IMG/VR virus record: IMGVR_UViG_3300042560_001023
Span: 1-29,967 of that record
From: a virus
DNA: 29,967 bases
Reading direction: 5' to 3' (one strand)
The notes under the pieces were generated by a model. The model saw only the letters and a program-made list of their open reading frames with translations, did not search any database and was not told the origin of the DNA. Below, one piece after another: positions 12,108 through 28,244 of the stretch. Numbering within the stretch: the stretch's first letter is position 1; every line of letters begins with the position of its first letter. A program made the translations under genes and the position numbers.

Positions 12108-12329
12108 ATGGCTAATGGAACCCTATCTTTCTCCCTTCCAGAAGAGCGACAAGAGTTTGAAGATGCTTGCAAAGCAGGGGATTTTCGCGCTGTTCTTGAC
12201 AATTTTGATAATGAGTTACGCTCTCATCTTCGCCATAATTCTCATCCCGATTGGAATAGCGCAACTATTGAAGAAGTTAGGAAAACTCTTTACGATCTGA
12301 TTGCCGACTACGGCATCCAAATCCACTAA
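12108..12329 (+). CDS. Small conserved phage protein
   Basis: The ATG at 12108 sits 4 bases after the upstream stop and gives 73 residues beginning MANGTLSFSLPEERQEFEDA; the frame is open to 12066 but that start lies inside the previous gene. The pattern (LxFxLPEExxEFxxA, then a NFDNELRSHLR-type helix, then IEEVRKTLYDLI) resembles a family of short phage proteins of unknown function I have seen in many phages. No enzymatic motif. Confidence 0.6.
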   Translation: MANGTLSFSLPEERQEFEDACKAGDFRAVLDNFDNELRSHLRHNSHPDWNSATIEEVRKTLYDLIADYGIQIH

Positions 12330-12347
12330 CCACCGCCAATACAACAC

Positions 12348-12950
12348 ATGACTACAGTATACATCTGTGGGCCTATGCGCTCACATCCAAACCTTAATCA
12401 TCCAGCCTTCTTTGAGGCCGAAGAAACCCTACTGAAAGCGGGGCATAAAGTGATTAACCCCGCAAGGATGGATCAAGAGCTAGGGTTAGACCCGCATAAC
12501 TCGCAAATGGATAGCAAGTTCATTGAGGAATGCGCCCGAAGGGACATTGATGCGGTCTTTGAGTGCGACGAGTTGGTTCTTCTTCCCAAATGGGAGAAGT
12601 CTAAAGGAGCCAGAGCGGAGGTCGCCGTAGCCCAATGGCTGGAAAAACCCTTGCGTCTTTATCCATCTATGGTTAGATTGGACAAAGAAGATGTGTGCGA
12701 CATTGCCAAGCGTCTTACCTCCTATGATCGGCAGACCGACTACGGAAGCCCAATTGAAGACTTTACCAAGCAAGCCAAGATGTGGGGAGCCATCCTTGGG
12801 GTCAATGTAACCCCGCAACAAATCGCCATGTGCATGATCGCGGTTAAACTTTCCAGACTCACCAATTCACCCCGCCATCGTGATAGTGTGGCTGATATCT
12901 GTGGCTATGCGCGGTGTTTAGATCTCTGTAACCAAGCAACCTCTTTATGA
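12348..12950 (+). CDS. DUF4406-DUF6378-like fusion protein
   Basis: A 200-residue protein in two parts. Residues 1-105 resemble DUF4406, a nucleoside 2-deoxyribosyltransferase-like fold: YICGPM (5-10), INPA (36-39), RRDIDAVFECDELVLLP (64-80) and KSKGARAE (84-91). Residues about 115-200 resemble DUF6378: DYGSPIEDF (131-139), KMWGAILG, VKLSR (166-170) and the D-x-x-GYAR motif (DICGYAR, 183-189). The two domains are usually separate small phage genes. The family functions are not established beyond a link to nucleotide or base-modification contexts. It ends in an ATGA overlap with the phosphoesterase gene, suggesting a shared pathway. Confidence 0.7.
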   Translation: MTTVYICGPMRSHPNLNHPAFFEAEETLLKAGHKVINPARMDQELGLDPHNSQMDSKFIEECARRDIDAVFECDELVLLPKWEKSKGARAEVAVAQWLEKPLRLYPSMVRLDKEDVCDIAKRLTSYDRQTDYGSPIEDFTKQAKMWGAILGVNVTPQQIAMCMIAVKLSRLTNSPRHRDSVADICGYARCLDLCNQATSL

Positions 12951-13735
12951 GTAAAAAAATAGCAGTCCTATCGGACTTCCACTGCGGCCACAAAGTAGGG
13001 TTAACCCCGAAAGGCTATCTGCCAGAAGAGCCAGCCGAAGAGCGATCACGTTGGGTTAACGCCAATAAAGCTTACTACAACTGGTATAGCCAGAACATCC
13101 GCAAAAACGGCCCCTACGATATCATTTTTATCAATGGGGATCTTGTGGACGGAACTGGCAAGAAGTCGGGCGGAACGGAGCAGATTACCACCGATATGGA
13201 GGAGCAATGCGATATGGCGGTTAAGATTATCCGCGAAATCCCGAAATCCAAAAACTGCAAGATTGTTATCACTAGGGGCACCCCATATCATACAGGAGAT
13301 TCAGAGGATTGGGAGAACATCATTGCAGAGCGTGTAGACGCCACAATCGGAGAACATGAGTGGGTGGACGTAGAAGGGGTTGTATTTGACCTTAAACACC
13401 ATCCAGCAGGCTCCAGCGGCATTCCCCATGGTCGGCACTCAGGAGTGGCCAGAGATCGCCTCTGGAATCTTATATGGTCTGAAAAGGAACTACAGCCCAA
13501 GGGGGATGTCTTTATCCGCTCTCATGTCCACTACCACAATTTCGCAGGAGGCCCAGATTGGCTGGCTATCACTACGCCAGCCCTTCAGGGGTTTGGCAGT
13601 CGTTTCGGAGCCAGACGATGCACAGGTATCGTGGACTTCGGATTCTTGATCTTTACAGTTAACAAAGGAACATACACATGGCAACCCATTATAGCAAAAC
13701 TAGAGGAGCAAAAAGCTCCAATGATAAAATTGTAG
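12947..13735 (+). CDS. Calcineurin-like metallophosphoesterase
   Basis: A 262-residue protein with the metal-binding layout of metallophosphatases: SDFH (D10, H12), FINGDLVD (G64-D65), GTPYH (111-115) in the place usually occupied by GNHD/E, LKHHP (H151, H152) and RSHVHYH (H193, H195). Two metal sites seem formed, but the GTPYH variant lacks the catalytic Asn-His order of the classical motif. Reaction is likely hydrolysis of a phosphoester, in DNA, a nucleotide or a sugar phosphate. It is ATGA-coupled to the DUF4406-like gene. The next gene starts inside its 3' end (13678). Confidence 0.75.
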   Translation: MSKKIAVLSDFHCGHKVGLTPKGYLPEEPAEERSRWVNANKAYYNWYSQNIRKNGPYDIIFINGDLVDGTGKKSGGTEQITTDMEEQCDMAVKIIREIPKSKNCKIVITRGTPYHTGDSEDWENIIAERVDATIGEHEWVDVEGVVFDLKHHPAGSSGIPHGRHSGVARDRLWNLIWSEKELQPKGDVFIRSHVHYHNFAGGPDWLAITTPALQGFGSRFGARRCTGIVDFGFLIFTVNKGTYTWQPIIAKLEEQKAPMIKL

Positions 13736-13968
13736 TCCCGTCTTGGGATAGTGTGTGGGAGTCGTTCGACAACCACAATCAGAAGACCACCATCGAGGCA
13801 ATGAACTCCGAAGGGTGGAGGACAATCGATCAGGTTATGCGGAAGACTGGTCTGTCAAGCCCTCGCATCTATAATATGGTTCGCGAAGGAAAATTTGAGA
13901 CAGTTAAAAAGAAAGTGTTTTATGGTGGAAAAACCAGAGACATTAAGTTTGTCAGACCAAAATGTTAG
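13678..13968 (+). CDS. Small HTH-like DNA-binding protein
   Basis: A 96-residue basic protein starting inside the phosphoesterase gene (58-base overlap) behind an AAAGGA Shine-Dalgarno-like site, which supports the start. The C-terminal half contains GWRTIDQVMRKTGLSSPRIY NMV, a helix-turn-helix-like arrangement, followed by FETVKKKVFYGGKTRDIKF, similar to a winged-helix wing. A role as a phage regulator is plausible but not shown. It ends in a short overlap with the sugar epimerase gene. Confidence 0.55.
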   Translation: MATHYSKTRGAKSSNDKIVVPSWDSVWESFDNHNQKTTIEAMNSEGWRTIDQVMRKTGLSSPRIYNMVREGKFETVKKKVFYGGKTRDIKFVRPKC

Positions 13969-22151: not shown

Positions 22152-22180
22152 AACTTACTCTAAAAAAGGTTGAGCGGCAA
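22152..22180 (-). promoter_or_regulatory. Candidate promoter for minus-strand cassette
   Basis: On the minus strand TTGCCG (22180-22175) and TAAGTT (22157-22152) are separated by 17 bases. The -10 ends 13 bases before the ATG at 22138, giving a very short leader, as for the portal gene. Both hexamers are imperfect, so confidence is moderate. Confidence 0.35.
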
Positions 22181-22193
22181 GATCATTTTCCGC

Positions 22194-22221
22194 TTGCATG
22201 GATTATCATCTATGCTAAACT
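22194..22221 (+). promoter_or_regulatory. Candidate promoter of small RNA
   Basis: TTGCAT (22194-22199) and TAAACT (22216-22221), 16-base spacer, with an extended -10 TGC directly before the -10 (22213-22215). Transcription would start near 22228 and read into the hairpins and terminator below. Confidence 0.5.
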
Positions 22222-22227
22222 CCGCAT

Positions 22228-22304
22228 TTGGAGGACATTCGTCTTCCTGTTTTCATGTGTATGTGGGGCGGGGTCGGACTAAAAATTCGGCCCCGCTTTT
22301 TTTT
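22228..22304 (+). ncRNA. Candidate small RNA between divergent genes
   Basis: About 77 nt, bounded by the promoter above and a strong intrinsic terminator. It contains a first hairpin GGAGGAC-ATTC-GTCTTCC (22230-22247, seven pairs including one G-T, 4-base loop) that hides a GGAGG Shine-Dalgarno-like element, a single-stranded linker, and the terminator hairpin. The only in-frame start in it (ATG 22255-22257) leads into the terminator, lacks an exposed ribosome site and is not a convincing gene. A small regulatory RNA is the best reading, but the alternative is an attenuated leader of the downstream gene at 22352, which however has its own promoter after the terminator. No known RNA family is recognised. 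Confidence 0.5.
22268..22304 (+). terminator. Strong intrinsic terminator
   Basis: An 11-bp stem, 22268-22278 with 22286-22296 (GC-rich GCGGGG base, two G-T wobbles), a 7-base loop (CTAAAAA) and a run of eight T at 22297-22304. It is oriented on the plus strand, so it ends the small RNA rather than the minus-strand gene, and it insulates the downstream promoter. Confidence 0.85.
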
Positions 22305-22310
22305 GAACGC

Positions 22311-22339
22311 TTGACAAGTTAGGGTGTCGGATATAACGA
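22311..22339 (+). promoter_or_regulatory. Candidate promoter for the nuclease-module operon
   Basis: A consensus TTGACA (22311-22316) directly after the terminator. A -10 is TAACGA (22334-22339, 17-base spacing) or the overlapping TATAAC (22332-22337, 15). Either ends 12-14 bases before the ATG at 22352, giving a transcript with only about 6-8 bases upstream of the start. Confidence 0.6.
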
Positions 22340-27146: not shown

Positions 27147-28244
27147 ATGACTGAAGAGGAAAGACAACAAATGCTTCGCAATCGAAGCACAATGATTGGA
27201 GCAGCACAGGGGCCACTTAATCTTGGTGGTGCTGTTCCTGCATTTCCTACAAATTTTCAAAATATTAATCCACAACCAGCAGCACCACTTATTCCTTTTC
27301 GCGGTGGTGGCACCGCAGAAATTAGTGTTGGCGGGGCGCAAGTCAACTATCCTTCGCGACTTGGACTTACTGGAGGAACTTATGGACAAAGAGAAATGGG
27401 TGCTAGGGATTTTGGGGCTGTCGGTCTTCCGCAACCACAGCGTCAAGAGATGTTACTCCAATACACGGACAATCCATTTGCCACACCAGCGCAAAGGTTT
27501 GCACCAACATTAACTCAAGGGCTTACACAACTTCCAATAACCACCTCGCTGCCTATTGAGCAGGGCCCACTTTCCGCAAATATCAACGCCCCAAGAAGCG
27601 CCGAAGCACAGGGAAGGCAGGCAATTCAAACTCCCTACGGAACTATTTATGCTACAGCAGAGCAAGCGGCAAACATGCAAACTCCGCGCACGATGGCTCA
27701 GTCAAGCTCCAGAACACCAGAGCAACAGCAAGCATTGTTGGCGCAAATGAGGGAGGCTGGCGTTGGAATTGGGCAGCGCATTGCCCAAGACCAACAAAGG
27801 CGCGACCAAGAGTCTATTCAGCGTGGATATGCATTTCGTCAGGGTCTGGCAGAGACGGCTGCACAAAGGGCACTTACCCCATCATTTGGCACAGAGCCGT
27901 CAAGCGAGTCAAAAACTAGGGGGGCACAGGCACTGGCGGAAGCTGAACGCTGGAGGCAAGCACAGGCTGGACGAAGCCCAATGAGCAGAGAACCTTTTGT
28001 TTTTGGTGGGGGCGGTGGGCCGCAACCCGCAGCAACAACTGCAACAATGCCAACACTATCAATGGCTGGCCCATCTACAATGGGTATGGGCGCGAGTGCT
28101 TTTTCATATACTCCATTTGCTCAAAGAGTTCAACTGCCAGAAGAATCTTCACTTGGTAGATTTACAGCAGCAATAAATCCCGCAAGAACTGGAAGCAGAT
28201 TCAGGCCATTCCCGTTTGGAATGCGGCGATTTGGCGTGATTTAA
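27147..28244 (+). CDS. Gln/Ala-rich virion protein, unknown
   Basis: A 365-residue protein starting one base after the previous stop. It is rich in Gln, Ala, Pro and Gly with a charged helical middle (LLAQMREAGVGIGQRIAQDQ, then RQGLAETAAQR) and a low-complexity end with GPSTMGMGAS. Such composition is common in proteins carried in podovirus capsids. Function unknown. It is coupled to the next gene by stop-N-ATG (TAA-T-ATG). Confidence 0.55.
   Translation: MTEEERQQMLRNRSTMIGAAQGPLNLGGAVPAFPTNFQNINPQPAAPLIPFRGGGTAEISVGGAQVNYPSRLGLTGGTYGQREMGARDFGAVGLPQPQRQEMLLQYTDNPFATPAQRFAPTLTQGLTQLPITTSLPIEQGPLSANINAPRSAEAQGRQAIQTPYGTIYATAEQAANMQTPRTMAQSSSRTPEQQQALLAQMREAGVGIGQRIAQDQQRRDQESIQRGYAFRQGLAETAAQRALTPSFGTEPSSESKTRGAQALAEAERWRQAQAGRSPMSREPFVFGGGGGPQPAATTATMPTLSMAGPSTMGMGASAFSYTPFAQRVQLPEESSLGRFTAAINPARTGSRFRPFPFGMRRFGVI

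Follow-up and report, generated by a model that had tools for sequence, protein, structure and literature searches.

Comparative analysis of a 29,967-base stretch of an IMG/VR virus record (the window), whose phage genes include endonuclease VII and an exonuclease, indicated that a functional small RNA (sRNA) gene very probably exists at positions 22194-22304 on the plus strand. The gene is located in a noncoding gap of 213 bases between the divergent starts of a long minus-strand gene (from 22138) and a plus-strand gene for a protein of 218 amino acids (aa; from 22352). An earlier sequence-only reading of the window had proposed a discrete RNA of about 77 nt; covariation and the conserved order of the parts support a noncoding RNA of about 75-80 nt that has a promoter and a terminator of its own.

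Along the plus strand the gap contains TTGCAT-16-TAAACT with an upstream TGC, a 7-bp hairpin, the unpaired stretch UGUUUUCAUGUGUAUGU and a terminator with eight T. The gap, the extended -10 promoter, the hairpin, the 11-bp terminator stem and the T run had all been described in that reading, and each was confirmed in its place. The -35 element TTGCAT occupies 22194-22199 and the extended -10 element TGC-TAAACT 22213-22221 (TGC 22213-22215; TAAACT 22216-22221). The sRNA is predicted to start near 22226-22228 and to end within the T run (22226-22304). Its parts are hairpin 1 (GGAGGAC-ATTC-GTCTTCC, 22230-22247), an unpaired G/U-rich core that is the candidate seed (UGUUUUCAUGUGUAUGUG / UGUUUUCAUGUGUAUGU, 22248-22264) and an intrinsic terminator (22265-22304). 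The terminator stem pairs 22265-22278 with 22286-22299, with 11 strong pairs in the fold (22268-22278 / 22286-22296), and the eight T follow at 22297-22304. Compared with dinucleotide shuffles, the fold of the 111-nt module had a z-score of -6.3; that of the 79-nt predicted transcript was -4.65 against shuffles. The terminator ranked strongest among 15 terminator hits in 15 kb.

The -35 and -10 elements match the consensus only moderately, and the promoter was therefore unconvincing on its own; a generic sigma-70 scan requiring 9/12 matches did not list it and was uninformative. It is the comparative data, not the consensus score, that establish this promoter. In 31 distinct homologous promoters whose spacer is 16 nt long, no change occurred in TTGCA, in the G of the extended -10 element (TGN), in TA or in the final T, while the spacer was otherwise variable and much of it drifts freely. 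Most contigs contained no second site matching the sRNA promoter equally well. The terminator was compared in 15 distinct versions, in all of which the 11 core pairs were intact (100% paired) even though the stem sequence had completely diverged, with a two-sided change somewhere at each of the 11 pairs. When the 3' arms were reassigned among the sequences, mean pairing was 61%, and 100% was reached in 0/5000 reassignments. A T run follows the stem in the homologues. Selection is thus visible both in promoter elements that stay invariant beside a drifting spacer and in a terminator that has diverged yet remains paired.

Compensatory changes were likewise present in hairpin 1, at pair positions 2, 3, 4 and 6, and the hairpin was retained with such changes in groups 1 and 2 and in L055; it was weak, different or missing in L036-L038, L040-L042 and L044. 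The best-conserved transcribed segment was the core (U-rich, then CAUGUGUGUG), which is shared by divergent groups and persists where both stems have changed. The lengths of the UG run and of the T run differ between close relatives and shift the reading frame, so that no peptide is encoded; a peptide starting at the AUG in the core was rejected, as its frame is not retained between relatives.

Sixty-six viral contigs of IMG/VR were found to encode the 218-aa protein, and all 66 have retained the sRNA module, 64 of them directly upstream of the 218-aa gene. In L027/L067 and L057/G045 the intact module lies about 0.7-1 kb upstream, with an inserted gene in between. The order from promoter to terminator was retained in every member, and the 33 contigs read at length carried one copy each. 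A scan of 2.9 million viral contigs that was independent of the neighbouring genes, using two promoter-plus-core patterns, gave matches essentially confined to the same lineage. Given the fixed locus, the single copy and the confined matches, the module is a single-copy gene at a fixed position in one lineage of uncultured phages, with promoter, structure and terminator all shown to be conserved by comparison. It persists where HNH or similar genes have been inserted next to it, to the left or to the right. Such HNH-type endonuclease genes or similar inserts adjoin the sRNA gene in L001, L007, L027/L067, L057/G045, L058 and L059; in L001 the HNH stop codon seems to fall within the spacer of the sRNA promoter. 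Searching Rfam 15 at the gathering score gave no match in the window, and in the related loci only a tRNA, in four of them. By this comparison the sRNA, though of a known kind, forms a new family that is absent from Rfam.

From these data we infer transcription, pairing in trans, a target and a direction of effect along the following lines. RNA polymerase would start near 22226-22228 from the extended -10 promoter and terminate at the intrinsic terminator, yielding an untranslated RNA of 75-80 nt in which a 5' hairpin usually precedes the open G/U-rich core and the terminator stem. The core would pair in trans with C/A-rich start regions of phage mRNAs that are poor in Shine-Dalgarno (SD) sequences. 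The pairing (CAUGUGUGUG of the sRNA with CACACAUG of the mRNA) would overlap the start codon and there block or tune initiation. A DUF4406 / nucleoside 2-deoxyribosyltransferase-like gene, encoded on the same strand at a distance of 4-12 kb, is the leading candidate target. That the sRNA acts in trans by base pairing on phage start regions seems plausible to us, if somewhat short of probable. A broader version, in which one sRNA with a UG-repeat seed serves this SD-poor lineage as a multi-target, GcvB-like switch on CA-rich start regions, acting directly at start codons without SD, is doubtful.

By inspection, very few genes of the window have a Shine-Dalgarno sequence, and many starts have A/C-rich leaders; SD-like sequences preceded 20% of the ORFs compared with 13% when the upstream sequences were shuffled, although some of the ORFs counted are spurious. 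The rarity of SD sequences together with the A/C-rich leaders points to a host with SD-independent initiation. Any G/U-rich RNA would be expected to match some leaders here, since these are often C/A-rich.

The target screen covered 32 contigs and 80 orthologous families and matched the core of each phage against the start region of every ORF of that phage. The start region of the DUF4406 gene (AATACAACACATGACTACAG, 12318-12360 on the plus strand; gene at 12348 of the window) had the lowest mean rank of the 80 families, 0.094 (z = -2.28 compared with shuffled start regions). None of 265 dinucleotide-shuffled cores ranked this region as low (nominal); after correction for taking the best of 80 families the level was reached in 32/265 shuffles (~0.12), so that DUF4406 is not significant. 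With the screen limited to intergenic start regions the value was 0.156 compared with 0.228 ± 0.040 (0/60). In L044 the core could pair over about 17 nt, with one bulge, across the phage's own DUF4406 start. Comparing cognate with swapped core and start pairs in ten divergent pairs, the cognate combinations were not clearly better (p = 0.085). True cores gave 30 strong start-region matches compared with 14.7 ± 4.2 for shuffled cores (0/160), a twofold excess due largely to DUF4406 and to the coding-constrained start of a 96-aa gene, with one match being an antisense artefact; over all start regions, the mean pairing of true cores was slightly worse than that of shuffled ones. Several phages bearing the sRNA had no DUF4406 gene on their contig. 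In view of the correction over 80 families, the swap result and the slightly worse mean pairing, the DUF4406 gene is the leading target at a suggestive level only.

A weaker candidate was the start of the 96-aa gene (AACATACACATGG, 13660-13690 on the plus strand). It was rejected as a second target, because the site is part of the end of the upstream coding sequence and its pairing was not above that of shuffled cores (38/265). The 96-aa protein itself (13678-13965), whose gene begins before the upstream one has ended, weakly matched an excisionase/transcriptional-regulator PHROG (E = 9e-7). Exact sites of the CACACATGAAAA type were no more frequent in the window than expected by chance. The best single duplex of the screen (in G027; -26.3 and -43.4 in two runs) was the opposite strand of the sRNA itself and was discarded as an artefact.

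The core might instead act outside the phage, on host mRNAs or host sRNAs, or soak up an RNA-binding protein. We regard this as rather unlikely, although phage groups differ less in the core than in the DUF4406 start region, its cognate covariation with phage targets is weak, and other phage sRNAs, for instance AgvB and VpdS (PMC12197685), are known to act on the host or as sponges; the excess of strong matches to phage start regions would then be a coincidence. A further reading, improbable in our view, is an insulator, with a functionless short transcript and a terminator that halts stray transcripts coming out of the divergent promoter region. In its favour, the most strictly kept parts are the promoter and the terminator, and some phages do without hairpin 1. 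Against it, the core is kept across groups whose hairpin and terminator sequences have changed completely, and an insulator has no need of such a core.

Slightly less probable still is an attenuated leader acting in cis, with the promoter serving the 218-aa operon and the terminator being conditional. This would fit the position of the terminator just upstream of the 218-aa gene in 64/66 contigs. However, a separate promoter of that gene is predicted downstream of the terminator (TTGACA ... TATAAC, 22311-22337 on the plus strand) and is retained in relatives, in L067 and G045 the sRNA is intact although an inserted gene puts it about 0.7-1 kb from the 218-aa gene, and the predicted folds show a very stable stem and no antiterminator. 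The sequence-only reading had also considered regulation of the two flanking operons, which is not indicated by our data: for the 218-aa gene downstream, a promoter of its own is predicted beyond the terminator, and its start region does not rank among the best pairing sites. Its other proposal, that the GGAGG of hairpin 1 titrates or masks ribosome-binding sequences, is very improbable and largely refuted by comparison, as this motif is present in the hairpin of the window but is a minority variant (GGAAGG in most relatives, GAGGG in another group, absent in others), is predicted to be paired within the stem, belongs to a hairpin missing in some members, and would act in phages with few SD genes.

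A dyad, CAAGATCATTTTCCGCTTGC, lies at 22178-22197 between the divergent promoters, occurring once per contig and nowhere else in the contigs. On the minus strand, a motif scan predicted the promoter of the divergent tail operon, TTGCCG-17-TAAGTT (22152-22180). In phages with an HNH gene in place of the tail gene, the dyad is broken or lost and the sRNA promoter is intact from TTGCA onward. With its pattern CAAG..ATTTT..CTTGC, single per genome, the dyad resembles an operator.

The preferred reading, trans pairing at phage start regions, has a tested precedent in GcvB, whose GU-rich R1 seed silences ACA translation enhancers (PMC3879156). Like the R1 region of GcvB (RF00022), the core is a G/U-rich unpaired candidate seed that could pair with C/A-rich (ACA) leaders, and both RNAs have their own promoter and an intrinsic terminator. 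The sRNA described here differs in being phage-encoded, in its promoter and structure, and in candidate sites that overlap the AUG in SD-poor mRNAs. GcvB is more than twice as long, and its covariance model gave no hit at the gathering score or at E values up to 10. P22 sar, P1/P7 c4 and lambda OOP are also short RNAs by which phages act on phage mRNA, and two of them, sar and c4, do so close to the start site. Sar and OOP are located opposite or beside their targets, and c4 arises by processing from its own operon; here, in contrast, a distance of 4-12 kb separates the sRNA from its candidate target, and there is no evident temperate switch. PreS, VpdS and AgvB are short phage transcripts acting in trans, as is proposed here, but their phages infect enteric bacteria or Vibrio, and Hfq takes part in the action of PreS and VpdS.

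The conserved promoter, covarying terminator and fixed locus allow metatranscriptomes to be searched for the sRNA directly. Should the predicted target be right, it would show how an sRNA can repress translation by occluding start codons where mRNAs make little use of Shine-Dalgarno sequences.

Among about 50,700 phage records no close relatives of the lineage were found; the 218-aa protein and a 759-aa protein had no relatives among phage isolates, and the terminase had one weak match. A search for the host via related proteins in bacterial and archaeal genomes found none. G012, G014 and G022, which are among the largest contigs, have terminal direct repeats, implying complete genomes of about 68-73 kb. 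G003 contains, at 28100 on the plus strand, an ORF of 3556 codons that takes up about 15% of the contig.
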